From an uncultured Clostridia bacterium (GTDB lineage Bacteria; Bacillota; Clostridia; Oscillospirales; CAG-272), in the NCBI GenBank assembly GCA_947588825.1, contig CANPZU010000006.1:1-64000 (forward strand): a DNA stretch of 64,000 bases, given 5' to 3'. The notes under the pieces are model-generated. The model was not told the origin of the DNA, did not search any database, and saw nothing but the letters and a program-made list of their open reading frames with translations. Every line of letters starts with the position of its first letter. Positions within the stretch are counted from its first letter, which is position 1. Positions 12,028-50,407 of this stretch are shown one piece after another. A program made the position numbers and the translations under genes.

Positions 12028-13140
12028 TCACAGAGACGCCGTCATTTTTAATGCTTCGGCGACGACTTGGTCCATGTCGTAATACCTGTATTCCGCGAGC
12101 CGACCGCCGAACAGAACGTGCGGCTCTTTTTCGGCAAGGGCGTGGTATTTTGCGTACAAGACGTTGTTTCGCTCGTCGTTAATTGGATAGTACGGCTCTC
12201 CGCCGGGTTTCCACGGTTCGCTGTACTCGCGGCTGACCACCGTTTTTGGCAGGTCGTTGCCGTTTTCGTCCTTGCCAAACGTAAACCACTTGTGTTCGAT
12301 GATCCGCGTCCACGGCGTTTCCCGGTCGGTGTAGTTTACCGCCGCGTTGCCTTGGTAGTTGGGCGTATCGAGTAGTTCCTTTTCAAACCGCACCGAACGG
12401 TATTCCAGAGGACCGAAACAGTATCCGAAGTATGCGTCGATGGGACCGGTATAGACGACCGTATGCGCTAAACTGTCCAGTTCGGCTTTGTGTGCGAGGT
12501 AATCGACGTTCAGCCGCACCTCGATGCCGTCCAACATGTTTTCGACCAACTTCGTGTATCCGCCGACGGGAATCCCCTGATACTTCGCGTCAAAGTAGTT
12601 GTTGTCGAACGTGAAGCGCACGGGCAAGCGTTTGATGATGAACGTGGGAAGGTCTTTACAGTCCCTACCCCATTGCTTTTCCGTGTAGCCCTTGACCAGT
12701 TTTTCGTAGATGTCCGTCCCGACGAGGGAAATCGCCTGTTCCGCAAGGTTTTTCGGCTCGGCAACCCCGGCAGACTTCCGCTGTTCGTCGATCTTTTGTC
12801 TCGCTTCGTCCGGCGTCGTTACGCCCCACATTTTGTTGAACGTGTACATGTTGAACGGGAGGGAGTAGAGCTCGCCTTTGTAATTCGCGACGGGACTGTT
12901 CGTGAAGCGGTTGAACACGGCAAAGCGATTGACGTAATCCCAGACTGCTTCGTCGTTCGTGTGGAAGATATGCGCCCCGTAGCGGTGTACGTCGATGCCC
13001 TCGATGCGTTCGGTATAGACATTCCCGCCGATGTGGTTCCGTCTGTCCACCGCGAGAACGGTTTTCCCGTTTTCCTTCGCCTTTTGCGCGAACGTCGCGC
13101 CGTACAGCCCCATCCCGACGACGAGGTAGTCATATTTCAT
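12028..13140 (-). CDS. glf: UDP-galactopyranose mutase
   Basis: Flavoenzyme (370 residues) converting UDP-galactopyranose to UDP-galactofuranose, the donor for galactofuranose in surface glycans. The N-terminal dinucleotide fold is YLVVGMGLYGATFAQ; NHIGGNVYTE, YGAHIFHTND and the C-terminal PYYPINDERN and FGGRLAEYRYYDMD are all conserved. Length is normal for the family. It implies that the polysaccharide made by the locus contains galactofuranose. Confidence 0.97.
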   Translation of the reverse strand: MKYDYLVVGMGLYGATFAQKAKENGKTVLAVDRRNHIGGNVYTERIEGIDVHRYGAHIFHTNDEAVWDYVNRFAVFNRFTNSPVANYKGELYSLPFNMYTFNKMWGVTTPDEARQKIDEQRKSAGVAEPKNLAEQAISLVGTDIYEKLVKGYTEKQWGRDCKDLPTFIIKRLPVRFTFDNNYFDAKYQGIPVGGYTKLVENMLDGIEVRLNVDYLAHKAELDSLAHTVVYTGPIDAYFGYCFGPLEYRSVRFEKELLDTPNYQGNAAVNYTDRETPWTRIIEHKWFTFGKDENGNDLPKTVVSREYSEPWKPGGEPYYPINDERNNVLYAKYHALAEKEPHVLFGGRLAEYRYYDMDQVVAEALKMTASL

Positions 13141-17442: not shown

Positions 17443-18830
17443 TCAAAATTGAAAATAAACAAATGGAGCTTCCCCCGTAAACGCAAGTGCGACAAGCATA
17501 CCACAAGCAATAAAGAATGCAACAAGTCCCCAAAAGCTGTTTAAGCTAACAATAGGATAATATCCATTTACTGTTGCTTCTTTTTTCTTTGATTTTAATA
17601 CTGCAAATGCTGTTGCGATCACAATAAACAGGATTGAAACATACGACCACATGAAATTTTGAACAATTCCGCTCTGCAACGTAAAAATACCCTTGATCAC
17701 GCTCCATGCCGTCCCAAAAGTATCCGCACGGAAGAATATCCAAGTAAATGTTATAAAACAATATGTAGTAGCTATACCCACTATTTTTCCAAATATAGTA
17801 GAAGCATTTCTTTTTCGAAGTTTATCCAAACATAATGCCAAGCCGTTTAAGGCGCCCCAAAATACAAATGTCCAGTTTGCTCCATGCCAAAGACCACCCA
17901 AAAGCATAGTAACAAAGAGATTAAAATACTGTCTCGCTTTTCCCTTCCGATTCCCGCCGAGAGGTATATATAAATATTCTTTCAGCCATGTAGATAGACT
18001 AATGTGCCATCTGCGCCAGAACTCTGTAACATTTTGAGAAATATACGGAAGATTAAAATTGGGCAAGAAATCATATCCAAAACATTTTGCGCAACCGATC
18101 GCAATATCTGAGTAACCCGAAAAATCAAAATAAATTTGCAAGGAATACGAAACAATCGCCAAAATAAGCGTCCCCCAGCTGTATGCTGTCGGTGCATGAA
18201 AGATGTCGTCCACAAATACCGAAATATGATCCGCAAGGACGATTTTCTTGAAGAGTCCGAATACCATCAGCTGTACGCCGTATTCGAGTCCTTTGAGAGT
18301 AACTTTTCTGTCCTCGTCCAATTGTGGTAAAAAATCCTTTGCTTTGACAATCGGTCCGGCTACAAGTTGCGGGAAGAAACTGATATACAGCGCGAGCTTT
18401 ACAAAATCCTTTTCTGCCGCTATTTTTTCTCTTTTAACATCAATAACATAGCTTAGTGCTTGAAATGTGTAAAATGATATTCCTACGGGAAGAATAATAT
18501 TTAATACTCCTGTACCCCCCCCGCAAATATTTTTGCAAATGAGGAAATAAAGAAATTAAAATATTTGAAAATCCCAAGAACCACAAGCGGAACAGTTACG
18601 CCCGCAACGAAAGCGAATTTCTTCCTTACAAAAATTGCTGTAAAGTATGCCGTGACCGTTACAAACATAAGCAGGAAGCAGAAACGCCAATCCCAATAGC
18701 CATAGAAAAAATAACTTGCAATCAGCAAAAAAACATGCTTGGGAGTATTGCTTTTCGCTTTTTGCAGAACTATCGTGCCAAGTAATACAACGAGAAAAAA
18801 CAGGATAAAATCTATTGATGCAAACGACAT
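17443..18830 (-). pseudogene. MBOAT O-acyltransferase, out of frame at a G tract
   Basis: Membrane-bound O-acyltransferase of the AlgI/DltB type, used to acylate surface glycans. The 5' part (start 18830, AGAGG upstream) encodes the first helices up to KYFNFFISSFAKIFAGG, then the frame fails at a run of eight G (minus strand) and stops at 18501. In another frame the protein continues without loss: TGVLNIILPVGISFYTFQAL, QLVAGPIVKAKDFLPQL and the catalytic LWHGANWTFVFWG, to 17443. Nine or six G would restore a protein of about 460 residues. This is the pattern of slipped-strand phase variation, present state OFF. Its partner SGNH gene lies just upstream. Confidence 0.88.
18515..18522. repeat. 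Poly-C/G tract (8) in MBOAT gene
   Basis: Eight C on the plus strand at the exact point where the MBOAT frame breaks. Minus-strand context is TTTGC-G8-TACAGG. Confidence 0.95.
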
Positions 18831-18843
18831 TCGATTAACCTCT

Positions 18844-19839
18844 TTATTGTTCGATAATTTTATAAAGTTCTTCAGCAATCATCTCATGCCCGAATTTATT
18901 AAGATGTCCGCTTCCAACAGATGAATTACAGAATCCGTGCGGAAGAATGTGTTTTGTGTTATATTCTTGTTGGAACCGATCCGTCATATCCAAAAATATT
19001 ATCCCGTTATTTTCGCATAAATCTGAAAATACTTTTCTATCCTCCATGTTGTCCGGTAGCAACAAACTTCCGTCTGAATTGATTTGCGTGGTCGGATGAT
19101 AGCAAATGATAATATTGGTTTCATTTTCTGACGCAATATTTGCAATATATGACAACACATTATCGAGAAGTAAATTATCTACTGTATTCCCAAAAGACTT
19201 GTTTGAAATGTCAGCTTCTTTCTTATCACCGCCCTGTTCCAAAAATCCCTTAATTTGATAGTAGGTTAATCTCAAAAATTGATTTTTAGAAAGCATAGCG
19301 AGTATTCCTTCCGAATGATCGGCGAGTTCCGAAATAGAACCGTCCAATATAGAATTTAATTCATCATCAGTAAAATCCAGTTTAGATGTTTCAATAACAA
19401 CATATTCAGATGGATGATAATACATTAAGGCGGATTCAAGGTTGTTACAGCATATTGGAAATGTATGTCCGGATATTCCAATATTATAAGCTGTATTACT
19501 GCCAAGCAAAGCATTTAATTTTGAAACTGTTGATTCTGACATAAGCACATTGCCCGCTTCCATATGTGATGAGCCCATAATGAGAACATTGATATTCATT
19601 CTAGTTTCATAATCAAAGGAATTCGCAAACCCTTCATTATTCGTCTTGCCATTCGAAATTCCCTCTCTGCATTGGGAATAAAACGTATTTGGTGTCCAAA
19701 TATGATCAGTAGCTCCGCTTGAATTAGGGAAATGGACGGGCGAATTATAATAAAACATACAGAAGAATGTCATCGCGAAAAAGGCAAAACATCCCGCGAA
19801 AAAGGCTTTGATAAACCATTTTAAACATTTTTTACACAT
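18844..19839 (-). CDS. SGNH-like protein partner of MBOAT
   Basis: A 331-residue protein with an N-terminal signal anchor (FIKAFFAGCFAFFAMTFFC) and an extracytoplasmic domain with SGNH-type features: VLIMGSSHMEAGN (nucleophile block), NIGISGHTFP, and SGHLNKFGHEMIAEEL near the end (His block). Such proteins work with MBOAT enzymes to pass acyl groups to glycans on the outside, as DltD or AlgX/AlgJ do. The start at 19839 has GAGGAG six bases before it. Stop and next start are 13 bases apart, so it is co-transcribed with the MBOAT gene. Confidence 0.75.
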   Translation of the reverse strand: MCKKCLKWFIKAFFAGCFAFFAMTFFCMFYYNSPVHFPNSSGATDHIWTPNTFYSQCREGISNGKTNNEGFANSFDYETRMNINVLIMGSSHMEAGNVLMSESTVSKLNALLGSNTAYNIGISGHTFPICCNNLESALMYYHPSEYVVIETSKLDFTDDELNSILDGSISELADHSEGILAMLSKNQFLRLTYYQIKGFLEQGGDKKEADISNKSFGNTVDNLLLDNVLSYIANIASENETNIIICYHPTTQINSDGSLLLPDNMEDRKVFSDLCENNGIIFLDMTDRFQQEYNTKHILPHGFCNSSVGSGHLNKFGHEMIAEELYKIIEQ

Positions 19840-19990
19840 ATTATCTCCTCGCATAGTTATTTCATTAACTCAATCCATTTTTTATAATGCCATGATCCTT
19901 GTTTCAAAAGGTTAAAGCCACTAAAAAGACGTTTTTTTATGTACTTTGATATGATATGCTTTCAGATAACCGCCGAAGTAGATTCGACGT

Positions 19991-21223
19991 TCAGTCCCTT
20001 CTAAATAAGTCGCGTGTGTAGACTTTATCCGCGACGTCGTCGAGCACAGGTTCATACCGATTTGCGATAATGGCGTCGCTCTCATGCTTGAAACGCTCGA
20101 TATCGTTCACGACAACGCTCCCAAAGAAGGTCGTGCCGTCCTCCAGCGTCGGTTCGTAGATGATGACCGTCGCGCCCTTTGCCTTGATGCGTTTCATAAC
20201 GCCTTGGATCGAGGACTGACGGAAGTTGTCGCTACCCGTTTTCATGGTCAGGCGATAAACTCCAACCGTGACATTTCGTTCTTTTTCACGATTATAGCTT
20301 TCGCTGTTTTCGTATGCCCCCGCCATTTTCAATACCCGGTCGGCAATGAAATCCTTGCGGGTGCGGTTGCTTTCGACGATGGCGGACATCATGTTCTGCG
20401 GCACGTCACGGTAGTTTGCAAGGAGCTGTTTCGTGTCTTTCGGCAGGCAGTAGCCTCCGTAGCCGAAGGAAGGGTTGTTGTAGAAATCGCCGATACGCGG
20501 GTCAAGGCAGACGCCGCGGATGATGTCCGCCGTGTTCAGCCCCTTCATCTCGGCGTATGTGTCAAGCTCGTTAAAGTAGCTGACACGCAGGGCGAGGTAG
20601 GTGTTGGCGAACAGCTTGACTGCCTCCGCCTCGGTGAAGCCCATGATGATGGTGTCGATGTTTTCTTTGAGAGCGCCTTCCTTGAGAAGTCCCGCGAAGG
20701 TGTTTGCCGCTTTCGTAAGGCGGTCGTTTTGCAGATCCGTGCCGACGATAATGCGGCTGGGATACAGGTTGTCGTAAAGCGCTTTGGACTCGCGCAGAAA
20801 TTCCGGGCTGAACAGAATGCGGTCGGTGTGATACTTCTCCCGCATTTTCTCGGTGTATCCCACGGGAATCGTGGACTTGATCACCATGATCGCACTGTCC
20901 GAGTTTTCAAGCACCAGTTCGATCACCGATTCCACGGCGGAGCAGTCGAAATAGTCCTTCTGCGGGTCATAATTGGTTGGCGCGGCGATGATGACGAAGT
21001 CCGCGTCGCGGTATGCCGACGCACCGTCGAGGGTCGCGGTTAGATCGAGGTCTTTCTCGGCGAGGTATTTCTCTATGTATTCGTCCTGAATCGGACTCTT
21101 GCGGTGATTTATCAATTCCACCTTTTCGGGGATGATGTCTACCGCCTTGACGCGGTTGTGCTGCGCCAGAAGCACAGCCATGGATAAGCCGACATAGCCT
21201 GTACCGGCAATTGCGATGTTCAT
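19991..21223 (-). CDS. ugd: UDP-glucose 6-dehydrogenase
   Basis: NAD-dependent oxidation of UDP-glucose to UDP-glucuronate. The 410-residue protein has the N-terminal NAD fold ([19 protein letters not shown]), [33 protein letters not shown] and the catalytic cysteine in [14 protein letters not shown]. Length and motifs match the short bacterial Ugd group. The next gene is a uronate epimerase, so the two provide UDP-GlcA and UDP-GalA for the polysaccharide. GAGG precedes the ATG. Confidence 0.94.
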
Positions 21224-21233
21224 TTTTTATCCC

Positions 21234-22304
21234 TCACACTTTGTAAAATTCTTTATACCACTCGGCAAATTTCCGAAGTCCGTCGCGAAGGCTTGTCTGC
21301 GGTTTGAAGCCGAAATCCCGTTCCAATGCGCTTGTGTCGGCATAGGTCACGGGAACGTCTCCCGGCTGCATCGGGACAAGCTTTTTGTGGGCTTCGAAAT
21401 CGTAGTCTCTCGGCAAAACCTCGGCACGGATAAGCTCCTGCTGCAAAATGTCCACGAAGTCCAAAAGGTTCTCCGGGTGGTTGTTGCCGATGTTATATAT
21501 CTTGTACGGAGGAACGGGAAGCCCGTCCTCGCCGGTCGTTTTTTTCGGGGGCGACTGCATCACACGAATGACGCCCTCCACGATGTCGTCCACATAGGTA
21601 AAATCCCGCTTGCAGTTGCCGTAATTGAAGATTTCGATGGTCTCGCCCTTCAGGAGCTTGTTTGTAAATCCGAAATACGCCATGTCCGGGCGTCCGGCGG
21701 GACCGTAGACCGTGAAGAAGCGAAGTCCGGTGGAGGGGATGTTGTAGAGCTTTGAGTAGGCGTGTGCCAGAAGCTCGTTGCTCTTTTTGGTTGCCGCATA
21801 GAGCGAAACAGGGTTGTCCACCTTATCGTCGGTCGAGTACGGCACTTTTTTGTTGGAGCCGTAGACACTTGACGAACTTGCGTACACCAAATGCTCAACG
21901 GGATTGTGGCGGCAGGCTTCAAGAATGTTGTAGAAGCCGATGATGTTAGACTCTATGTACGCGTCGGGGTGAGAGATCGAGTAGCGCACACCCGCCTGCG
22001 CCGCAAGATTCACGACGATTTGGGGCTTGTACTGCGCGAAAATACCGTCGATCAGCGCCTTGTCTGCGAGGTTACCCTTGATGAAAGTGTGTTTAACAGG
22101 GCTGGTCGCGGCAACTTTTTCGATCTCTGCAAGGCGGTACTCCTTCAGCGAGACGTCGTAGTAGTCATTCATACTGTCGAGGCCGATGATGTGCCCGGAC
22201 GGGAGATCGCGCAAAAGGCGCGTAACGAGGTTTGCGCCAATGAATCCGGGCGAGCCGGTGACGAGGATTGTTTTGGTATTGAATGCAACATTTTGATTTG
22301 TCAT
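21234..22304 (-). CDS. UDP-glucuronate 4-epimerase-like enzyme
   Basis: NAD-dependent short-chain epimerase (about 356 residues) with ILVTGSPGFIGANLV (cofactor loop, one Ala replaced by Ser), YASSSSVYGSNKKVPYS and the catalytic Tyr/Lys in SLYAATKKSNELLAH. LRFFTVYGPAGRPDMAYFGF is typical of the UDP-glucuronate 4-epimerase group (LspL/Cap1J). The TTG at 22310 would also be in frame but ATG 22304 has AAGGA at better spacing. It lies 11 bases from ugd, which makes the product UDP-galacturonate likely. Confidence 0.88.
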   Translation of the reverse strand: MTNQNVAFNTKTILVTGSPGFIGANLVTRLLRDLPSGHIIGLDSMNDYYDVSLKEYRLAEIEKVAATSPVKHTFIKGNLADKALIDGIFAQYKPQIVVNLAAQAGVRYSISHPDAYIESNIIGFYNILEACRHNPVEHLVYASSSSVYGSNKKVPYSTDDKVDNPVSLYAATKKSNELLAHAYSKLYNIPSTGLRFFTVYGPAGRPDMAYFGFTNKLLKGETIEIFNYGNCKRDFTYVDDIVEGVIRVMQSPPKKTTGEDGLPVPPYKIYNIGNNHPENLLDFVDILQQELIRAEVLPRDYDFEAHKKLVPMQPGDVPVTYADTSALERDFGFKPQTSLRDGLRKFAEWYKEFYKV

Positions 22305-22448
22305 ATGCAATATCCTTATGTTTAAAATTGAATTATATCTTGAACTGTCTTTGACCTTTAGAATGGGGCCAATTATTTGCCCATATAACAGTTAATAACC
22401 ATTCCTTTTTGTATGGATACAGTTCCATTTCAAGGATGTTTTTTATCT

Positions 22449-24056
22449 TTATTTCAGAGCTTTTATATACGGTAATGCATAGGCAAATATAAAGAACAAG
22501 CCTATAGCTACGCCATATAAAATATAAACATACATGAGCTTGTGGGTTTTTCTGTCTTCAATCGCATTGCATTCGCTTTCAGGCCGAATATGTAACCGTT
22601 CATATCGCTCTATATCACTTTCTGTCGGTTTCTTAATTCTGTTTCCTACTAATAAACCAATCAGACTTAACACCATACCAATAATAAACGGATCCAAATA
22701 CATTGGCAGCGTCACCTCCATTAATGCCGAAACGCTTTTGGGTATCACGCATCCTAAAAAGCCAAACAGCATGCCCAGAAAAGCACCCAGTTCGCTCATT
22801 TTTTTCGACCAAATAGAAGCCAGTGCAACAATTCCCCACGAGCTGGCAATCACAGTACCGCCAAAGTACATAATCCAGAATATCTGCGGAGGATTAAAGA
22901 ACGCTAATGCTAAAGCAATAAGGCTTACGATTGCCATGCCAATTCTCGAAACGGTAAGAGATTTCTTCTCTGTAGTATCTCTGTATTTTGTGAATACATC
23001 ATTCGTCAGCGATGAACCTATCAGCGAAAGGAATGTCGAGGCTGAAGAAATTCCTGCTGAAAGAATACCTGTCAGCATGACTACTCCAACCAAAACCGGC
23101 ATAACATTCATTGCCGCCCAAATAATGCTACTGCTTGCATCACTCAAATCCGGGTTGATTTTATACACAAATGCAGCGGTGAAATAAAGCGACATCGTCA
23201 CCGTTGCTACACCGATGGATGCCCAAATTGATGAGCGAACAACAGTATGCTCATTTTTAGCCATCAGATATCTGCTTGTCTGCCACGGACTGACCATTAC
23301 AACAACTGCCCAGACAAAGCCGTAAACAATAGCCCAAACCAGATTTTCTGCACCGGTAGGATAGAGATAATCCAGATTATTTGTCCACGAAATGATACCG
23401 GGACGGGTTACAGACTGCGCCAGTTCCGTTATAGCGGTATTCCATCCTCCTGCCGCTTTGACTACAAACGGGATTCCGATAAGAGCTGCAACCAGGAAAA
23501 CAAGGAACATTACAGTATCTGTAATCAGAACGCCTTTGGAACCGGAATAAACCGTAAAAATGGTAAATGACGCCCATGCAATCAGAACGCACCACTTATA
23601 TTCGAGTCCCGTGATAGAAGTCATTAGCGTAGATACGCCCTGAATTGCAGAGAGCAAATAAGCCGTAACGCCAAACATCAGTGTAATAGATGCCAGTTTT
23701 CTCATGCGGTTTGAAGCAAATCTCATTCCGAAATACTCCGGAACCGTATTAGCTTGACTTCTTCTTATGTACTTGCCGAATAATGTTGCTCCGTAAACAT
23801 AGCCTAACGACTGCATTATTCCGACAATAACAATTCCCATGAAGAAACCGCTGTAAACTTCACCGGTATCTCCGAGAAAAGCGCCTGTTGAAAGGAAGGA
23901 AGCGATCAGCGATCCTACAATCAGAATTACCGGGGCACGTCGACCTGCAACATAGTAATCGTTCGTGTTCTTTACTTTGCGTCCGGCAATTATACCTATA
24001 AGTATAAAGACTATAACTGCTACTATGGTACCAATCAAATAAATGCTGAAGCTCAT
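22449..24056 (-). CDS. Sodium/solute symporter (SSS family), copy 1
   Basis: A 535-residue secondary transporter with 12-14 membrane segments. Family hallmarks: GRKVKNTNDYYVAGR near the N-terminus, SLIASFLSTGAFLGDTGEVY, and the sodium-site helix GILSAGISSASTFLSLIGSS. The substrate cannot be read from sequence; relatives carry proline, pantothenate, carboxylates or sugars. It is paralogous to the symporter at 30.5-32.1 kb. Its start overlaps a 31-residue one-helix protein gene. A transporter inside a capsule locus suggests import of a building block or modifier. Confidence 0.88.
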   Translation of the reverse strand: MSFSIYLIGTIVAVIVFILIGIIAGRKVKNTNDYYVAGRRAPVILIVGSLIASFLSTGAFLGDTGEVYSGFFMGIVIVGIMQSLGYVYGATLFGKYIRRSQANTVPEYFGMRFASNRMRKLASITLMFGVTAYLLSAIQGVSTLMTSITGLEYKWCVLIAWASFTIFTVYSGSKGVLITDTVMFLVFLVAALIGIPFVVKAAGGWNTAITELAQSVTRPGIISWTNNLDYLYPTGAENLVWAIVYGFVWAVVVMVSPWQTSRYLMAKNEHTVVRSSIWASIGVATVTMSLYFTAAFVYKINPDLSDASSSIIWAAMNVMPVLVGVVMLTGILSAGISSASTFLSLIGSSLTNDVFTKYRDTTEKKSLTVSRIGMAIVSLIALALAFFNPPQIFWIMYFGGTVIASSWGIVALASIWSKKMSELGAFLGMLFGFLGCVIPKSVSALMEVTLPMYLDPFIIGMVLSLIGLLVGNRIKKPTESDIERYERLHIRPESECNAIEDRKTHKLMYVYILYGVAIGLFFIFAYALPYIKALK

Positions 24057-24148
24057 TTGTCTTTCCTCCTGTCGCTTGTCATGTACCCGTAAAAGAGTGC
24101 CGAGATAATAAACAACACCCCAAATGCGATTGAAAGTACTAATTCCAT
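24053..24148 (-). CDS. One-helix accessory protein of symporter 1
   Basis: A 31-residue protein, MELVLSIAFGVLFIISALFY followed by a short charged tail. It is one membrane helix; the stop overlaps the symporter ATG (ATGA) and GGAGG precedes its own ATG. A matching protein precedes the second symporter, so it is probably a small subunit, similar in idea to the YhdT-PanF pair. Confidence 0.75.
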   Translation of the reverse strand: MELVLSIAFGVLFIISALFYGYMTSDRRKDK

Positions 24149-24149
24149 A

Positions 24150-25079
24150 TTATTTCCTCCGTTCCGGCAGCTCAATCCAGCTGCCAAGTTTTATATCCCA
24201 CTCTTGTGGATTAATAACAGCCAAACCAGAATTATGGTAGAAAGTTAATTCTCCAAAATAAATGTTGTCATTGCAAAGATATAAGTCTACTCGTACTTGC
24301 GGTATGCCTTCTGCAAGCTTTTCAGCAAGTTCAATCATTTTATCCATCTGTTTAGGACGTTCAAGTTCACCTTCTGAATTTGGATTTAACGAAGTAAACG
24401 GAAATCTGTTAAGATCCAGATCGCAATAATCGTTTGTTCTCCCGGCACCGTGTGCTTTCCCCTTGCAAACCAAAATCATTTTTGCCTTTCCGTTAAAGCA
24501 AAAAATTTTGTATTCCTCTAAATTACCACACTTCTGATTACTCATTAATTCCTCATCAGAATTATTCGATATGAACTTTTCTGCAAAAATTTGAGGTTTA
24601 ATATCTCTATATTGTGGTTCACGTCCGTACCAATAAAAGTTGACCTTCATTGATTTTTTAAACTTTGTTTTGGCAGTTGCTTTGTCTAACTCATTTTTGT
24701 TCTTTACAACAATAACACTACCACTATCATGATTAGTCTTTAATACGAACTCATTCGGAAGACTATCGAAATCAATATCATCGAAACAATCCCATACTCC
24801 AATTGTTGGAATAATATATTGCTCACCAATTTTAGATGCGATTATATCCTTTGCCTGAATTTTATCAGTTAATTTTGTATACAATGGGTTAAAGAAATCC
24901 GCGTTATAAAGCTTCAACCATTGAAGTTTTTCGTTAAACGTTTGTGGATCATTCAGATTTAATTTTCTTCCCGTGTATATTCTGTACTTTAATTTTAGAA
25001 ATAAGGGAGAAGGCATCCAACGCAAAAAGCCTCTGTAGGACAAAATACTGAATAGATCTTTAGCAGTTATTTTTCTCAT
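24150..25079 (-). CDS. TupA-like ATP-grasp protein
   Basis: A 309-residue protein of the TupA-like ATP-grasp group (PF14305), often annotated as a glycosyltransferase in capsule loci. Features are LNDPQTFNEKLQWLKLY, EFVLKTNHDSGSVIVVKNK, NLEEYKIFCFNGKAKMIL and QVRVDLYLCNDNIYFGELTF with the metal-binding Asp/Glu. The group takes its name from teichuronopeptide synthesis, so ATP-dependent ligation of an amino acid or acid to a uronic acid is a fair guess. The ATG overlaps the flippase stop. Confidence 0.8.
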   Translation of the reverse strand: MRKITAKDLFSILSYRGFLRWMPSPLFLKLKYRIYTGRKLNLNDPQTFNEKLQWLKLYNADFFNPLYTKLTDKIQAKDIIASKIGEQYIIPTIGVWDCFDDIDFDSLPNEFVLKTNHDSGSVIVVKNKNELDKATAKTKFKKSMKVNFYWYGREPQYRDIKPQIFAEKFISNNSDEELMSNQKCGNLEEYKIFCFNGKAKMILVCKGKAHGAGRTNDYCDLDLNRFPFTSLNPNSEGELERPKQMDKMIELAEKLAEGIPQVRVDLYLCNDNIYFGELTFYHNSGLAVINPQEWDIKLGSWIELPERRK

Positions 25080-26581
25080 ATTTTACTCCTTTGCTTTTTA
25101 AACATAAGATCTATGCTGTTCTTTACCATTTTCCTGTAAAAAACAGTATTAAGCAAAACCGATTCCATAAAGGCAATTACTGTTACTTTAATAGCCATCC
25201 ATATCCATGATATCCAACTTTCGCTACCAAGTGCGATCCATCTTGTGCTGAACCAAATGCAAAGCACAACAAGAATATCCACTAACATGTGTTTTACATA
25301 AATACTAAATTGACGTTTAAGAATGTGCGAACGTAAATACCACGCAAGATATATTGTCCTGTACAGCATCGCAATTAAAGTTCCAAGTGCAACGCCAACA
25401 AGGCCAAATCGTCGTACCAAAAGAACGGATATAATCACATTAATACATGCCTCAAGAATTGCACTGGTTTGTGTTTCTCTGAAATGGCCTGCCGCATGTA
25501 TCATAGCGTTATAAGGCATTCTCAAGCAATATGCAGCATTAGCTACTACTATAAGTATTGAAAAAACAGGAACGATATAATTTGCATCTCTTATTCCCTT
25601 TGTATATACTGCGACAAACGGCAAAATAAGAACAGCTGCCACACTGTATAGGAATGTCACCAAGCAGTGTATAATAAGTTCATACACCGAAAATGTGTCT
25701 TGCAATGTCTTTTCTTCTTTACGAGCATACATATCTCCGAGCAAAGATGAGACTCCAACGGTAACCGTCTCAATCAACTGCTGAAGACCATTTGTTACAA
25801 GGTGATAAACATAATAAATTGAAACATTTTCCAAAGTGGAAAACCACGTCAATATAAGCGTGTCTGTATGTTTAAGAATGTATGTCGAAATATGTTGAGC
25901 CAAGCCATTCCACTTTTGTTTAATCGGTTCTTCTGTCAATTTTAGTTTAAAGTTTAAATCATAGTGCCGATTAACATAAATTTTCAGCAAAAGAGGATTC
26001 AATATAAAAACACACGCCGCGACCAATTTAACAATCTCTATCGATACGCCGATTTTTATTAAAACAACGCTTGCGATCGTATTCAGAATCGTTGTAAATA
26101 TAGATATTCCGTATTCAATATAGGCCAGTTGATCAGCATTCAACAACTGTCGGTAAGTAATACCCATCATATAGTTTGCTATAGACTGAAAAGCAATAGC
26201 AACAACAAGAATAGCAGTAGATATGTAACCTATTCCGTGATCAACAGCTAAAGGAAAATATACCATCAGTATCACTGAATAGCCGCAAAGCAGTAACCCT
26301 ATTTTTTGAAAATATTTTTTTGATGAGATTAATATTTTACTGACATTTTCATAATTATTTTCCGCAAGAGGCTTATACAGCGCAGCTCGTACTACAGCTC
26401 CAACCCCCATTTCCATCATAGAAAAGAAAGCAAGGAACTGTGTTATAGACGAAACAAGACCATTTACCTCGGAACCGTAATGCCCTATTATAAGCCGTGG
26501 TAGAATAAAACCACTTATTAAAGTTACAAGTTGAGCTAATAAAGCCGTTCCGGTATTAAACAATAATTTTTTTCTTCGCAT
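25076..26581 (-). CDS. Wzx-type oligosaccharide flippase
   Basis: A 501-residue integral membrane protein of the polysaccharide-export MOP superfamily with about 14 helices (LLFNTGTALLAQLVTLISGF, LPRLIIGHYGSEVNGLVSS, FSMMEMGVGAVVRAALYKPL). It moves the lipid-linked repeat unit to the outer face, where the EpsG-like polymerase acts. Presence of both marks a Wzx/Wzy pathway. No chain-length regulator (Wzz/Wzd) is present in the window. Confidence 0.9.
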   Translation of the reverse strand: MRRKKLLFNTGTALLAQLVTLISGFILPRLIIGHYGSEVNGLVSSITQFLAFFSMMEMGVGAVVRAALYKPLAENNYENVSKILISSKKYFQKIGLLLCGYSVILMVYFPLAVDHGIGYISTAILVVAIAFQSIANYMMGITYRQLLNADQLAYIEYGISIFTTILNTIASVVLIKIGVSIEIVKLVAACVFILNPLLLKIYVNRHYDLNFKLKLTEEPIKQKWNGLAQHISTYILKHTDTLILTWFSTLENVSIYYVYHLVTNGLQQLIETVTVGVSSLLGDMYARKEEKTLQDTFSVYELIIHCLVTFLYSVAAVLILPFVAVYTKGIRDANYIVPVFSILIVVANAAYCLRMPYNAMIHAAGHFRETQTSAILEACINVIISVLLVRRFGLVGVALGTLIAMLYRTIYLAWYLRSHILKRQFSIYVKHMLVDILVVLCIWFSTRWIALGSESWISWIWMAIKVTVIAFMESVLLNTVFYRKMVKNSIDLMFKKQRSKI

Positions 26582-26625
26582 TTGCTTCGCCCTAGTAACT
26601 CCTTAATTTCATAAAACCATATAAG

Positions 26626-27804
26626 TTATTTCAAGAGCGTCTGCCAATCAGCCGTGATTTTTTGAGGTGTAAAATCAGCAATTCTCTCAAGACTTTTACG
26701 GTGGTAATGCTTTTTAAGTTCTGAATCTCTTAACAGTAGCTCAATTGCCTTAACAAGTTGCAGCTCCGCCTTTGTCAACGGACTCGTCGCGTCAAATTCT
26801 CCCATTCCACAAACTGAAGTTAAAATTCCATACTCGCACATCTCTATATCTTCGAGATGTTCTTTTATATTTGTACCCGGGTTAAGTATTTCTCTAGAAC
26901 CCGAATAACAGTCAGTGGAAATACATGGAAGGCCAAAAGCCATCGCTTCAAGCAGGGCATTCGATAGACCCTCAAATTCGGAGGATAAAACGAATGCATC
27001 ACAAAACTTAAAACAAGCATGTGGCGCTTCGACATAGCCAAGAAACTTTATATTGTTTTCAAGGCTCAAATTCTTAACAAGACATTTAAGTCGCTCTTCC
27101 AACTGTCCTTCACCTAAAACATATAATTTAATATCAGGAATAGTCTTTTTAACTTCGGCGATGGCTCTTATCAGATGCCATTGACCTTTTTGTTCTGTTA
27201 GACGTCCCATAGTTATTAATCCATGTCCGGTTTCAAGAACAATGCTATTATTTTCAGCTTTTTTAAAAAGAATTTCATAGTTACATGGATTATGTATTGT
27301 TACTACCTTGTCAGCGGGAATTCCGTATGCAGCTTTAAGATCGTTTTCAACCCCTATAGAAGGGGTTACTACTTTATATGATTTATTGCCAACAAACCTC
27401 ATCAACTTTTCTTCTACATAACCTCCGATGCCCTTTGCCGGATTTCGAGATTTTGACATTTGATTACGAACTGATGTGATCACTTTTTCGTCGACATATG
27501 ATAAAACGTTTACAAGATTGGGACCCATCAATAAACTGATAGAATAATCAAAGTGATGTTCCTTTTTGATAGTTTTTACGACATTTACTCGCTTAAAAAA
27601 CGTAATCAATTTATTAAATAGGCCATCCTTTGAGGGCATATGAAGATCGTACAATGTCCCTGCATATGGGTAGGCAATATCCCGCCCATCGAAAACAATC
27701 AGGTGAACATTATATGATTCTTTTAGGAACATAGATAAATTAGCTGCCGTTCGTTCCGCTCCACCCCCATTTAGCGTTGGAACTATAATTACTATGTTTT
27801 TCAT
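26626..27804 (-). CDS. Family-4-type glycosyltransferase
   Basis: A 392-residue GT-B enzyme. The N-terminus has VPTLNGGGAERTAANL (glycine-rich acceptor loop) and the C-terminal donor domain has TMGRLTEQKGQWHLIRA, LGEGQLEERLK, and SSEFEGLSNALLEAMAFGLP with the E-x7-E motif of family GT4. Acts in the cytoplasm on the lipid-linked repeat unit; the sugar cannot be predicted. AAGGAG precedes the ATG. Confidence 0.9.
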   Translation of the reverse strand: MKNIVIIVPTLNGGGAERTAANLSMFLKESYNVHLIVFDGRDIAYPYAGTLYDLHMPSKDGLFNKLITFFKRVNVVKTIKKEHHFDYSISLLMGPNLVNVLSYVDEKVITSVRNQMSKSRNPAKGIGGYVEEKLMRFVGNKSYKVVTPSIGVENDLKAAYGIPADKVVTIHNPCNYEILFKKAENNSIVLETGHGLITMGRLTEQKGQWHLIRAIAEVKKTIPDIKLYVLGEGQLEERLKCLVKNLSLENNIKFLGYVEAPHACFKFCDAFVLSSEFEGLSNALLEAMAFGLPCISTDCYSGSREILNPGTNIKEHLEDIEMCEYGILTSVCGMGEFDATSPLTKAELQLVKAIELLLRDSELKKHYHRKSLERIADFTPQKITADWQTLLK

Positions 27805-27887
27805 ACGGTTTCTCCTTGTATAATGCTATCGGTTTAAAGGCTCCTTGAAAATTTGCTTCTATAAACTTCTATAAAATAATTGTTAGA

Positions 27888-28922
27888 TTACCACATAAAT
27901 TTATATGGAACCGTTCCATTCATATTTGAAAGGGAATAAACATAAAATGCGAAAGATAATATCATCATAATAATTATAACAATACTTTGGCTCTTCTTTT
28001 CAAAAGCTTTGGCTGTATTTGGTAGCATAATAAACATCGGAATTGAAAAGAATTCGCCTAATCTATTGAGTATTGTTATTGTTAGTGCAAAACTTTGACA
28101 AACAACAGAGCCTACCGCCAATAGTGTAAGCAATTGCAGTTTTGGATTTATTTCTTCGGAACGCATGAATAGGAACCAGACATAACAAAATACCAGAAAA
28201 TAAACAAGTAGCAATGATCCTCCTGATCCGGGTTTGAGATCAGCATACCGTGAATAGCCTAAATAGGAAACCATGCTCCTTATCAACGGCGCAGAAAACA
28301 ATGATGTTACAAGTGTAACAATGGTAAACCCCAAAAGAAGATACTTATTGATTTGCTTGTTTATTCTTTTCCCATGAAGAAATGGATATATTAAAACCGC
28401 TATTAAAGCTGTACGATGAAATAGTGATGCCAAAATAATCAAGAAAATAAACTTCCAAAATTTCTTTTCTTGGGCATATTTATAAGCAATCAAAACAATA
28501 CTAATCGCAATAGCTTGCCTTAATCTAGTGAATGTTGACTGATAAAAACCCATTGAAATATATAGCCATATGCTGATAATAGGAAAGGATGCATTTCTTT
28601 TTATAAAATGAATTACGCCGATTATTGATAGAAAACTACAAACTGCGAGTAGCCACTGGTAATTGTTTGTGAAAATAGAGATAATTTTATTAAGTAAAAT
28701 GTATCCTCTCTCCACATCAGCATAGGATGAAAACCACTCTGCTCGTGAAAATATTTCAAAAAATGATTTATAAGAATAATAATCCGCTCCTACGCCTTCT
28801 CCTTTAAGAGCGCCTAACATAAACAGCCAAATGAATATTACAATGTACATCAGCCTTTTGTTTTTTCGCAAAACACAAGCTGTCAGTGATATGAGAAACA
28901 AATTTACAATATAAAACAGCAC
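27888..28922 (-). CDS. EpsG-like polysaccharide polymerase (Wzy)
   Basis: A 344-residue membrane protein with about ten helices, of the EpsG family. VGADYYSYKSFFE and RGYILLNKIISIF near residues 45-80, WLYISMGFYQSTFTRLRQAI in the middle and FHRTALIAVLIYPFL are characteristic. It polymerises repeat units outside the membrane. The start is a GTG with GGAGGGG upstream. Confidence 0.87.
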   Translation of the reverse strand: MLFYIVNLFLISLTACVLRKNKRLMYIVIFIWLFMLGALKGEGVGADYYSYKSFFEIFSRAEWFSSYADVERGYILLNKIISIFTNNYQWLLAVCSFLSIIGVIHFIKRNASFPIISIWLYISMGFYQSTFTRLRQAIAISIVLIAYKYAQEKKFWKFIFLIILASLFHRTALIAVLIYPFLHGKRINKQINKYLLLGFTIVTLVTSLFSAPLIRSMVSYLGYSRYADLKPGSGGSLLLVYFLVFCYVWFLFMRSEEINPKLQLLTLLAVGSVVCQSFALTITILNRLGEFFSIPMFIMLPNTAKAFEKKSQSIVIIIMMILSFAFYVYSLSNMNGTVPYKFMW

Positions 28923-29016
28923 TTTGTTCGGTTCCCCTCCGTCTTCAATTTCTATAATAAACTCGTTAAAGTAAAATATAAGGCGCTTCTATAAAAATAG
29001 AATTTAGAAGGTCACT

Positions 29017-30087
29017 TTACAATGTTTTATTAGTTGAACCATAGAGAATTACATCTTCCCATTTTTTTAGAACATTCTCCGACATATATTTTTGAGAAGA
29101 GTTTATTGCACCTTCGCTGAGCCGCTTACAGGCAAAGCTGTCATTTAATAAAAATTCAATCTTTTCGGCCAGAGCCATTGAATCATTTTGAGGAACTAAT
29201 ATGCCATTGTAACCGTCACTAATTATTTCATCTGCACCGGGATAGGCGGTACATATACATGGCAAGCCTAACATCATGGCTTCTATCAAAACATTCGAGG
29301 CGCCTTCGTACAGAGACGTAAGTACAAACATTGTTGCACTGTTTATACAGTCATGTATATTCGTTTTATTTCCCATCAATCTCACGGCCCCAGTCAAATT
29401 CCATGCGTCTATTCTTTCATTTAATTCATCTTTAAGTGCTCCCTCTCCATATATTTCAAAGACCAAATTTTTATGGTCTTTTTGCAATATATGCGCGGCA
29501 TCGATAAACATCGTCTGATTTTTTTGAGCACATAAACGCCCTACTGTTACAACTCTATTCTTTTCCCTTTCTATAGGCATCGATTTGACTGTAACAGGAT
29601 TTGGAATAATCTCGCTATGATTTTTCAACGAATTAGAAAAGCAATTTTCCTGATACTTTGTTTGGAAGATAACAGTTGAGGCTCGTTTGTATAACAAATC
29701 ACAGATTTTTAACATTAATTTGCTTCTTCCATCATTCTGGGGATCGTTTCTTTCTGATACAATAATAGTGTTTTTTAACCCAAAACTTGCAAACAACACA
29801 AGCGCATTAATCCTCCCAACAAAGGAAATCACTCTATCCGGTTTACTTGTTTTTAGATACTTTCTTATGTTTTTGCACCAAAACAAGATATTTTTATAAT
29901 ATGATTTGTATTTGCCATGCAAATCAATAATTCTTACATCATCATTCAATTTATATTCAACAGTATTATCAAGTAAAAGAACTATATCGACATTCCACCC
30001 TAAATCAGAAAAATGGTTAGATAAATGCGATATGACTCTTTCGGCTCCGCCCATCCCCATACTACCTATAAAAAAAGTGATTTTCAT
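29017..30087 (-). CDS. Family-4-type glycosyltransferase
   Basis: A 356-residue GT-B enzyme: MKITFFIGSMGMGGAERVIS at the start, VTVGRLCAQKNQTMFIDAA, EIYGEGALKDEL and TSLYEGASNVLIEAMMLGLP (E-x7-E) in the donor domain. The ATG at 30087 has GGGAG at good spacing and overlaps the stop of the ATP-grasp remnant; an upstream in-frame start at 30102 would include the ribosome site. Confidence 0.9.
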   Translation of the reverse strand: MKITFFIGSMGMGGAERVISHLSNHFSDLGWNVDIVLLLDNTVEYKLNDDVRIIDLHGKYKSYYKNILFWCKNIRKYLKTSKPDRVISFVGRINALVLFASFGLKNTIIVSERNDPQNDGRSKLMLKICDLLYKRASTVIFQTKYQENCFSNSLKNHSEIIPNPVTVKSMPIEREKNRVVTVGRLCAQKNQTMFIDAAHILQKDHKNLVFEIYGEGALKDELNERIDAWNLTGAVRLMGNKTNIHDCINSATMFVLTSLYEGASNVLIEAMMLGLPCICTAYPGADEIISDGYNGILVPQNDSMALAEKIEFLLNDSFACKRLSEGAINSSQKYMSENVLKKWEDVILYGSTNKTL

Positions 30088-30543
30088 GTTAATTTCTCCC
30101 AATTCCGCATCATAGTAAAATACGGTTCCAAATCATCCTTGTCGTAATAATACTTCACATCCGCATCCTTGAAATCCGCAAGCCATTTTGCCGAGGAGAT
30201 TTTGCAGGTATCGATGCGCTTGCCGTAGTCGATTGGATCAACCAAAGCGGTGAAGTCATCGGGAATAGTTCGGTAAATTCTTTTCGGAACCTTACCGGAT
30301 GTCACCGTTTCGCTCGAGAGATGGGGAAGATTCATACTCGCCACGGTGGAAGCCCAGCTCCAAGTTGATACCCTGAAATTGATTTCGCTAAAATACAGGT
30401 CGGCGTTCTCGTCGATCAGGAATTCCACGCTGATCACTCCGTCCAAGCTGACGTCAGAAGAAATTTTCTACGGTTCTTTATATTCCTGCTCTTTTTCAAA
30501 TCTTTTGACCGTCATATATGGGCTGAAATAGCCTTTGATCAAA
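30084..30543 (-). pseudogene. ATP-grasp enzyme remnant
   Basis: C-terminal third of an ATP-grasp enzyme related to the intact copy at 32.2-33.4 kb. It retains GVISVEFLIDENADLYFSEI and NFRVSTWSWASTVASMNLP, equal to EFEFMVGEDGKLYFLEINFR in the intact gene. Upstream in the same frame KGYFSPYMTVKRFEKEQEYK can still be read but a TAG interrupts, and the N-terminal part is missing because symporter 2 ends there. The gene is dead or makes only a fragment. Confidence 0.8.
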
Positions 30544-43410: not shown

Positions 43411-43437
43411 ATTAAATACCTCTCAAAAAAATTTTAG

Positions 43438-43978
43438 CTACACAGTATATCCTCCGTCAACTCGCATGATCTGTCCACGAATTGATGGATGATCCAAAAA
43501 ATGCTACAGCATTAACTACGTCTATCACATTGCCATGCTGTCTTAATGATGTCTTTTGCACAATATTATGAATTAAGGCTTCCGGCTTATCTGCATTTAT
43601 ATCTGTCGGAATATATCCGGGAGCTACTACATTAACGGAAATATTATAATGACACAGTTCTTTAGCCATAACCTTCGTGGCATATATCAAGGAGGCTTTT
43701 GACGCTCCGTAGAGAATGTTTCCTTCTTCTATTTCTATTTCCATGTCTCTTACAGACGCTATGTTTACGATTTGCCCCTCTTTTTGTCCTGCCATGTGCC
43801 TCGCAACATATTGAGTAAACAATAGCGTTCCAAAAAAATTTACATCAAAAATCTTACGCATTTGTTTCGTAGAAGCCATCAAAAAGGTACTGTTTCCGGT
43901 TACACCCGCATTATTGATGGAGCATCAGTACCCCCCCCCGAGAATGTTTCTCTAACACACTCCTTTAATGTTTTTCAT
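43438..43978 (-). pseudogene. Broken SDR gene with G tract
   Basis: A second SDR, paralogous to the next gene but decayed. The likely start (ATG at 43978 with AAAGGA before it) gives only MKNIKGVC and a stop. The cofactor region, about 75 residues, is missing; after a run of nine G the frame resumes at INNAGVTGNSTFLMAS and goes through YGASKASLIYATKV. Near the 3' end a six-T run shifts the frame, so the natural end RGQIMRVDGGYTV lies out of frame. At least two independent lesions are therefore present. Confidence 0.82.
43931..43939. repeat. Poly-C/G tract (9) at the SDR deletion point
   Basis: Nine C on the plus strand (43931-43939), followed on the minus strand by TACTGATG. It marks the join where the N-terminal part of the SDR gene is lost. 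Confidence 0.9.
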
Positions 43979-43980
43979 AA

Positions 43981-47143: not shown

Positions 47144-47152
47144 CCCCCCCCC
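47144..47152. repeat. Poly-C/G tract (9) upstream of the polysaccharide operon
   Basis: Nine C on the plus strand. On the minus strand the context TTTTGC-G9-TA is nearly the same as in the MBOAT gene. It lies 41 bases past the stop of the second helicase and before the operon. Confidence 0.9.
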
Positions 47153-47193: not shown

Positions 47194-50100
47194 TTATACC
47201 GCTACGGACCGTATTCCGGCGGAACTGTCGTCTTTTTTGATCAAGACGGGGGATTCGTTCCAATCCATGCCGATAGCGTTCAGTCTGTTGATTTGATTCC
47301 CGTTTGCGCCGGAAGTTTTTAACTTGCTTTTTTCTTCCCGCTGTTTTTTTATCCATGCGCCGAGAGCAAAATCACCGAGACGGTAATCTTCCGGAACGTC
47401 AAGATCTCCGTGGTCTGCAAAATAGGCCTTTGCCGCGGCAAATCCTTCCTCCCATTTCCGTTCCATCGGGAACAGCCAGTCCATGCCGATCTTGTCCAGC
47501 TTTTGTTTGTATTCGTCCGAAAGCTCGCCTTTACGGTGTTTTTCACGCTGCGCATACACCCACGAACCGAGCCGAAAACCGTTTTTTGCCTTGTATATGC
47601 CCGAAACATGCAGATTTCCGTTCATACGGTAATAGTCGGCGGCTAACTGATATGCTGTATTCCAGTCATTGTCGTATTTGCTCCATACCATCCCGATTTT
47701 CTCAAGGCGCTCCGTCTGTTCGACGGTGAGATTATGGTGCTTTGTCGGATGATTATGATTGTTGCGCTGATTTAAGATCCAACTTCCAAGCGTATATCCG
47801 TCCGCGCATATGTATTTGTACGGGACAAGCAGATCGCCGTTCAGCTTCCGATATTCTTCGGCGTGTGCGAATCCGACCTCCCATGTGTCGGCAATCTCAA
47901 ACACCATACCGATGAGATCCAGTTTTTTGATTTGCTCATCGGTCAGTTTCCCTTCCCGATAATACCTGCGCTGAACAGTCATCCATAAGGCGAGGGTTTT
48001 TCCGTCATTTCCGTCGGAGAGAACCGTATCTTTCGGAACGTCAATATTTCCATGCTCGTCAAAATACGTTTTCAGCGCCGCATAGCGCCGATCCCAAATG
48101 GCTTCGTTTTTTGTTTTCCACTCGATCCCGATGGCTTCTAAACGCCGAATTTGTTCTTCCGTCAGCTTCTGCTTGCGATTTCCGTAATACATCTGCCGTT
48201 GGTCGCTCAACCATTTACTGAGATCTATGCCTTCCGTGTTAAACCTTGCCGGCACCCGCAAATGCCCATGCTCTTTGAAATACGCTTCCGCAAGAGAAAA
48301 GCGGTATTCCCACGGATCGACCCGTTCCCATTGCATGCCGATCGCATTCAATCGGTCATAACACTCGCGCGGCAGTTTGCCGACGTTCTGTTTTTCCCAC
48401 TGATGATAAACCCATTTCCCCAACGCATAGCCGGATTCCGTTTTATACAGCCCGGATATATTCAAATCGCCGTGCTTTTCATAATACGATTTTGCGGCGG
48501 CATATCCGGTTTCCCACTGCAATTCATTTTTGTTGCCCCAAACCATACCGAGTTCGTCCAACGCGGCGATCTGGTTCTCCGTTAAAGTGCAGCATCCTCG
48601 TTTACGTCTGGATCGCTGATTGTTCATCCATGCACCGAGGCGCACACCGTTGGGGGCGACGTATGCCGCAGGCACATTCAAGTTTCCGTGTTCCCGGTGG
48701 TACTCCATGGCGGTGGAGAAGTTGCGTTCCCAGAGATAATCGGGCACAGTCCAGACCATGCCGATGGCGTCTAATTTTGCAATCCGCTCCTTCGTGAGAT
48801 AGGCGTTTCGAATCCCGCTTTTGCGGTCAGTCCGCAGATTCGCGATCCACATGCCCAAGCCGGGCATCGTTGCGGGCACAAGCAGATCTCCGTTTTTTTC
48901 GTAATACTTTTTTGCCTCGGCGTAGTTTTTCTCCCACGCCACGTCGCGCACACTTTCCCATCTCATACCGAGCGCGTCCAGCTTTGCGATCCTGTCTTTA
49001 CCCAAGATCCCGTTGCTCGTCCCGTTCCGAATTTTGCGCTGTGTGCTAAGCCAGATCCCCAGCGAGTAGCCGTCCTCCGTTTTATAGTGTTGCGGAACCT
49101 CCAGATTGCCGTGCCGGTCGTAATATTCTTTCGCATAGGCATACATGGTATCCCATGAAGCAGTCAGTGTGTCGTTGAGTTTCTCGAACAGCTCGCGGCA
49201 GTCGCGGAGCTCGTCGATAACCTGAAATTGCTCGTTTACCACAAAGGACGACTCGCCCCAAGAGCGGTAGTAGGTCATAGCGATCTGCATTTCTTCCTGT
49301 ACGGAATCAATGCTGTACAGGTTTTCGATGTTCATCACAATGTCGAAGATGACCGGCTCTTTCGACTTACTTGCCGACAGCGCGCGACCGATCTGCTGTT
49401 TGTATATGATCGGCGAAATCGTCGGACGAAGCAAGATGACCCCGCTGACGTTCTCAACGTGAATTCCCTCGTTGAGCGCGTCGATGCAATAAAGCAGGCG
49501 GAGATGGGAGCTGTCGCTGTCGGATTTGAAATCGGCGAAAGCCTTCGACGCACCGGGGTCGTCGGCGTAAACAGAATAGACGTGCGGATGTTTGTCCACC
49601 CGTGCGAACCATTCGCCGGTTTTCTCCATCATCTCGTTCATATGTTCCTTGTTGGCACAGAAGACGATGTATTTGCCCGTGCGGTCGGTCATGTGCTTGT
49701 CGAAGATCACGTCCAGCCCGTCCGCTTTTTCAAGAGCACGACGCAGGGCTTCGAGGTATTTCTCGGCGGCGTCGCGGATAGCGCGGTTTTTGGCGGTTCT
49801 GACCCGGCGCTCATATTTTTCGAGGTCTTTCTGATAAGCGAAAACCGACAGTACATACTTCGGTGGGTTCAAAATTCCGCGAACAATTGCCTCGCCGAGC
49901 GTCATCTCGCTTGCGACGTTGCCGTCGAACAGTTCCTCCGACATATCCCGCTGATTGTCCAGATACCGGATCGCCGTCGCCGTAAGACCAAGGATCGGTA
50001 CGTCGGGGAACAGCTTCAAAAATCGCTGTACGCCCAACTGCCATTGGGAAGCGCCTGCTCTGTGATATTCGTCGCACACACAGAGTGCGGGCCAGATTTC

Positions 50101-50388: not shown

Positions 50389-50407
50389 CTCGCCGTCTCC
50401 TTTCTTT

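Follow-up and report, generated by a model that had tools for sequence, protein, structure and literature searches.

An MBOAT acyltransferase gene interrupted at a G8 tract in an uncultured Clostridia bacterium: a probable phase-variable switch in a surface-polysaccharide locus

In the window, the 64-kb stretch of DNA that was analysed as a whole, an MBOAT acyltransferase gene goes out of frame at a run of eight G, and the rest of the protein is encoded, intact, in another frame. We consider it probable that this G8 tract is a poly-G contingency locus that varies by slipped-strand mispairing, and that the assembled copy is in the OFF state. An on/off switch is the most likely reading because long G runs are over-represented in the genome and because several others lie in sugar-coat genes. 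The slippage, its reversibility, the acyl group and the acceptor of that group are all matters that we infer. The features on which the argument turns are the following.

17443 to 18514, minus strand: rest of the MBOAT protein, 356 residues in the other frame, with FWRRWH and GGLWHG (Pfam, DltB model, alignment with the L059 protein, pN/pS)
18501 to 18830, minus strand: N-terminal part of the MBOAT gene, about 103 residues ahead of the tract (aligns with the N-terminus of the intact L059 and L215 proteins)
18515 to 18522, minus strand: G8 homopolymer within the MBOAT reading frame (read from the sequence; C8 on the plus strand)
18844 to 19854, minus strand: membrane-anchored SGNH-hydrolase-fold protein, upstream neighbour of the MBOAT gene (conserved pair; AlphaFold and Foldseek)

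The minus strand around the tract reads ...AAATATTTGC-GGGGGGGG-TACAGGAGTATTAAATATT..., with the eight G at 18515-18522. Translated from the ATG at 18830, the upstream frame (MSFASIDF...FNFFISSFAKIFA, also given as MSFASIDFILFF...YFNFFISSFAKIFA) runs into the tract and reaches a stop 3 codons past it. The frame that is open downstream, which begins TGVLNIILPVGISFYTFQ... (also given as TGVLNIILPVGISFYTFQALSYVIDV...), comprises 356 residues and has its natural end at 17443. After the tract, two frames are closed by stops at 3 and 24 codons and the third is open for 356 codons; gain or loss of a unit at the tract would shift the gene between open and early-stop frames, as in contingency loci. The tract is the sole point at which the frame breaks: the 1.4 kb contain no second lesion, no sequence is missing around the tract, and each half can be aligned over its whole length with unbroken relatives. 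The product of the assembled G8 allele is a peptide of about 109 residues that lacks the catalytic core.

The downstream part of the protein matched the Pfam MBOAT family (PF03062, E 7e-36), and the GGLWHG and RRWH motifs, including the conserved histidine of the WHG motif, are kept in its relatives. With the DltB equivalog model (TIGR04091) the protein scored 157 bits, far under the cut-off of 375, and is therefore not named DltB; its intact relative in L059, the locus of an uncultured Clostridia MAG, matched the DltB structure 6bug in the PDB with an E of 3e-23. The initial annotation had identified the gene as an MBOAT gene, which the Pfam match and the conserved motifs support well, and had the frame failing at eight G and continuing in the next frame without loss, which the frame translations and the alignment to relatives confirm. 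It also had nine or six G restoring the frame, and the in-frame join does match the intact L059 and L140/L215 proteins. Further decay downstream, which it had named as grounds for giving up the idea, was looked for, and the gene shows no decay beyond the tract. Finally, the description of the assembled copy as OFF is upheld by the closure of the frame 3 codons past the G run.

Identity to unbroken homologues ranged from 51 to 71%. The L059 protein (71%) and that of genome G078 (L140/L215), both at about 70%, were the closer ones, and those of L060 and of genome G025 (L141/L216) were at about 51-57%. The G run is absent from these unbroken relatives, in which the corresponding loop reads, for example, VIGKDPGALRIILPVGISFYTF or IVNKDIETLTIILPVGISFYTF. 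The loop length in L059 and L140/L215 equals that of the six-G reading, and the nine-G reading is longer by one residue. Since the intact relatives are devoid of the tract, the G run is a derived trait, located in a loop whose sequence varies. This loop tolerates glycines, and an AlphaFold model of the MBOAT protein (pLDDT 50) predicts a break between helices at the position of the tract. In comparisons with L059 and L215, pN/pS was 0.27-0.32 for the part ahead of the tract and 0.21-0.26 for the part that follows it. Both halves have thus evolved as protein; with synonymous sites near saturation, these values reflect the history of the gene and not its latest generations. Orthologues from the same species or genus were ruled out for this comparison, as the MBOATs of the genus are all distant, at about 42-44% identity, and other families supply the best matches. 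That the closest matches come from outside the family suggests that the pair of genes may have been acquired horizontally.

The neighbouring gene product at 18844-19854 gave no match in Pfam or NCBIfam. Its AlphaFold model (pLDDT 68.5), however, found as best Foldseek matches in the PDB SGNH/GDSL esterases and PatB peptidoglycan O-acetyltransferases, with E down to 1e-6. In the four sequences compared, G-S-S (residues 94-96) and G-H-x-N (residues 316-319) are invariant, and they are candidates for the Ser and His of a putative SGNH Ser-Asp-His catalytic triad. L059 and L060 carry the same pair, in the order SGNH gene and then MBOAT gene. Enzyme systems that acylate glycans outside the cell usually combine an MBOAT with an SGNH partner, as established for the Pat, Dlt and alginate systems. 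The same two-protein layout is present here, with an adjacent membrane-anchored SGNH-fold protein and a conserved pairing. The SGNH-fold protein is thus, to judge from its model, the probable partner that would hand the acyl group from the MBOAT to the acceptor.

A surface-polysaccharide gene block, spanning 19991 to 30102 on the minus strand, adjoins the MBOAT operon, and a further sugar gene lies in the same neighbourhood.

12028 to 13140, minus strand: UDP-galactopyranose mutase (Pfam GLF, E 2e-81)
19991, minus strand: UDP-glucose dehydrogenase (Pfam, ORFs)
21234, minus strand: epimerase (Pfam, ORFs)
24150, minus strand: TupA-like ATP-grasp protein (Pfam, ORFs)
25076, minus strand: probable flippase (named by sequence inspection, with no Pfam match)
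26626, minus strand: glycosyltransferase (Pfam, ORFs)
27888, minus strand: EpsG (Pfam, ORFs)
29017, minus strand: further glycosyltransferase (named by sequence inspection)

The conserved SGNH partner, together with the EPS/capsule neighbourhood, makes an envelope glycan the likely acceptor, and within that class an extracellular polysaccharide is the likely substrate. The acceptor may, however, be an envelope polymer other than the polysaccharide encoded in the neighbourhood, so that the initial annotation, which had the polysaccharide acylated, is supported only in part here. The switch would then operate as follows. Slippage of DNA polymerase on copying the tract would change the number of G. 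One length class in three would join the MBOAT halves (ON), and the other two would end the protein no more than 24 codons past the tract (OFF). With the gene ON, an acyl group would be carried through the membrane by the MBOAT and then transferred by the co-encoded SGNH-fold protein to a glycan outside the cell, which is most likely the capsule or exopolysaccharide that the surrounding genes produce.

The window contains 27 G/C runs of five bases; runs of six or seven are absent, and the longer ones comprise a single run of eight and two of nine. Overlapping 8-mer matches numbered 5 against 1.16 in shuffles, with 3 of 100 shuffles reaching 5. The assembly is a draft of 2.67 Mb in 95 contigs (a bin 96% complete and 0.17% contaminated), and holds 122 exact G6 runs, 5 of G7, 4 of G8 and 11 of at least nine. 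By geometric extrapolation from G6 (q=0.20), 24 runs would be expected for length 7, 4.9 for length 8 and 1.2 for at least nine. Thus, G7 is depleted (P about 2e-6) and runs of at least nine are in excess (P about 7e-8), whereas the G8 class is not (4 found against about 4.9 expected). The MBOAT tract is one of 15 G/C runs of eight or more in the assembly, and 8 of the 15 come from contigs C14 and C61, where they lie in sequence that is of mobile type or unclassified. When these two contigs were set aside, six runs of at least nine remained against 1.2 expected (P about 0.002). Most of the 196 genomes of the family have 0-2 such runs; the source genome has 11, the congener G004 has 7 and a few others have from 13 to 52.

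The long runs of the source genome outside C14 and C61, apart from the MBOAT tract, are these.

C39:14168: short-chain dehydrogenase (SDR), G9, in frame
C43:3067: GT4 glycosyltransferase, G10, in frame
C43:14419: sugar-transfer-associated ATP-grasp protein, G10, in frame
C44:6733: hexapeptide acyltransferase, G9, in frame
43931 to 43939 of the window, minus strand: second window tract, G9, in a truncated SDR pseudogene (43437-43980)
47144 to 47152 of the window, minus strand: third window tract, G9, intergenic, about 40 bases past the stop of the gene at 47194-50418

The first four are in surface-sugar/EPS-type genes. The SDR pseudogene has a start codon, is missing its N-terminal domain at the G9 and carries a second frameshift close to its end. 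Its tract sits in a plainly decayed gene, so that not every long G run is a working switch. The 11 bases to the left of this tract are repeated 218 bases downstream, where they are followed by TAC with no G run. Two short regions, C14 (29494-33708) and C61 (797-7976), hold eight G runs of 8-10 in genes for phage-type DNA methyltransferases or PAPS-reductase-like proteins, or in unclassified sequence. Perhaps these regions are phages or mobile elements that carry their own phase-variable methyltransferases. Near-identical copies that might differ in tract length were sought: contig C61 had no megablast match among phages, and scans of viral contigs for the exact flanks of the MBOAT tract and of two methyltransferase tracts were empty.

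In G004, the long runs were found in the following places.

G004:C8:15170-15179 (L175:6066-7757): GT4 glycosyltransferase, G10, in frame
DUF1919 gene: G10; the gene is split, and the break is not clearly at the tract
Secreted protein: G9, in frame, with the tract within the signal peptide
Two BspA-like lipoproteins: G9 right after the lipobox cysteine, out of frame
Large predicted secreted protein: run on the opposite strand
Gene for a 2238-residue protein: run just upstream of the promoter-like sequence that precedes it

The two lipoprotein copies showed no difference in tract length, both being G9. In both genomes, the coding tracts are followed by one long frame, the other two being soon closed, and one long frame with two early-closing ones is the anatomy of a contingency locus. 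Taken together, the tracts of the source genome and of G004 are mainly in surface or modification genes and are a mixture of ON and OFF. Multiple tracts in surface or defence genes, another mark of contingency loci, are thus found in the source genome and its congener. An unusually long homopolymer in a coding frame, a third such mark, is provided by the MBOAT G8, though the G8 class itself is not in excess. The initial annotation had regarded the tract as one of the switch type. In part this is well supported, as long G runs are over-represented as a class and members of that class are found in several surface genes of the source genome and of one congener.

Some of these findings count against a switch. 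A tract of eight G would be a short one among homopolymer switches, and 9-10 G are present in the remaining tracts of surface genes; the viral-contig scans revealed no length variation; the G8 runs are at their expected number; the 43931 tract is in a decayed gene; and more than half of the long runs are those on C14 and C61. The foremost alternative, itself unlikely, is an assembly or sequencing error, in which case the real tract would keep the frame and the MBOAT would be intact and ON in most cells; slippage during library amplification can likewise leave the consensus of such a run one base off. Homopolymers are the commonest site of indel errors, the source is a 95-contig draft, and eight is one below the other in-frame runs of 9 and 10. 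However, the remaining long runs in surface genes of the assembly are in frame, which indicates that G runs were not corrupted across the board, and a long G run in the MBOAT gene would remain a candidate switch anyway. It also seems improbable that the gene is a recent, ordinary pseudogene, created by a one-time indel of one base in a G-rich stretch with no selected switching. G runs are mutation-prone regardless, the SDR gene at 43931 shows that gene decay occurs in the same locus, and the unexceptional number of G8 runs fits this view. Conversely, the 1.4 kb with no second lesion, the intact motifs and the pN/pS of about 0.21-0.26 past the tract speak against pseudogenisation, and the excess of runs of at least nine with a deficit of G7, together with the similar tracts in surface genes, would not be expected of random indels. 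We give assembly error and simple pseudogenisation together about a quarter of the probability. Slippage of polymerase or ribosome on long homopolymers is established in other bacteria and G8 is long enough for it to be considered, but transcriptional slippage or ribosomal frameshifting, yielding a steady full-length fraction from a G8 template with the DNA unchanged, is very unlikely here, as the relatives have no conserved tract and the site is not a conserved programmed one.

In other bacteria, the repeat is a G run in Neisseria pglI, a TA tract rather than G in Streptococcus pneumoniae wciZ, and poly-A in wbeL and manA, the phase-variable O-antigen genes of Vibrio cholerae O1. The pglI product, an O-acetyltransferase of protein glycosylation, was phase-variable in 41% of paired carriage isolates (PMC5445459). 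Like the putative switch described here, it is a phase-variable acyltransferase decorating a surface glycan, but it belongs to another lineage and acts on a glycoprotein glycan, its switching is documented by sequencing of isolates, and the source implies no MBOAT-SGNH pair (PMC5445459). The reversible 15B/15C capsule switching of S. pneumoniae occurs by slipped-strand mispairing in wciZ, a switched capsule O-acetyltransferase gene in a Gram-positive organism; there, switching and its antigenic effect were shown by experiment (PMC4432689). In V. cholerae O1, homopolymer switching of polysaccharide genes makes the O antigen heterogeneous within a strain (PMC3441752). The likeness lies in homopolymer tracts in surface-polysaccharide genes; the genes there concern biosynthesis and not acylation, and effects on phage sensitivity were shown (PMC3441752). 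With DltB/DltD and PatA/PatB, the present pair shares an MBOAT homologous to DltB and an adjoining PatB-like SGNH-fold protein, but the window MBOAT lies in a polysaccharide locus and not in a dlt operon, and scores below the DltB cut-off. No poly-G switch was described for these or similar MBOAT-SGNH pairs in the literature surveyed.

Clostridia were one of the groups in a survey that examined homopolymer tracts across 99 prokaryotic chromosomes (PMC2831843). We found no report of poly-G or slipped-strand phase variation in gut Clostridia, Ruminococcaceae or uncultured Clostridiales in the open-access literature searched, which is not proof of absence. With pglI and wciZ already known, what would be new is the lineage and not the mechanism. 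If the switch reading is correct, an uncultured bacterium, probably of the Clostridia, would have a small set of G-tract switches acting on its surface coat, as do Campylobacter, Helicobacter and Neisseria. Such switches determine which phages and antibodies recognise a cell, and with them a gene that looks broken in a draft assembly may still be working in some cells of the population.

The long G runs share a sequence context. In the source genome and G004, the base that follows the run is T in 18 of 22 cases, as against 18 of 100 for ordinary G6 runs, and the base that precedes it is C in 15 of 22; in the source genome alone, T follows in 11 of 15 (Fisher P 3e-5). Part of the T bias may stem from a TAA or TAG that directly follows the run in one of the frames. 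The repeated C-Gn-TA flank and the 11-base copy at 43931 prompted the idea that the G run is inserted as an element at C/TA sites. As a general explanation this was ruled out, since removal of the whole run at C43:14419 breaks the frame; the presence of the flank bias in unrelated long G runs of the family weakens it further.

The GT4 genes at C43:3067-3076 (L169) of the source genome and at L175 of G004 have the same layout: a complete GT4, the G10 and a second, complete donor-binding GT4 C-domain with no N-domain. In both proteins Glycos_transf_1 matched twice, and the G10 joins the parts in frame, although the two enzymes do not look related. A stop codon lies directly behind the GT4 tracts in one frame. 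The SDR pseudogene at 43931 likewise has its tract where an N-domain is missing. Such tracts might favour rearrangements of this sort, or they might gate a second domain. It is a doubtful proposal, but poly-G tracts of the genus might also alter the architecture of GT4 enzymes, between a normal and a two-C-domain form, and might be a major unreported source of surface diversity in the family; slippage at these tracts would then perhaps alter the donor sugar of the enzyme.

Elsewhere in the family, genome G190 (loci L217-L236) contains 52 G runs of at least nine. Many of those that were read encode, on the opposite strand, Pro-Pro-Pro linkers just past the lipobox of lipoproteins of about 450-500 residues, and nearly all the linker runs are of exactly nine and in frame. 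The G9 runs of G190 were left uncounted as evidence for switches, as they may be such linkers. A role of the MBOAT tract as a promoter spacer was ruled out, because the tract is inside the coding frame; a candidate of this kind in L022 belongs to another species. That candidate (G034:C56:63182-63193, minus strand) consists of TTGACA, 17 bases that include a G9, and TATAAT, and in L037 (G009:C3:12550-12558) a G9 lies in or at a promoter-like sequence; these two promoter-like G9 runs would be spacer-length switches.
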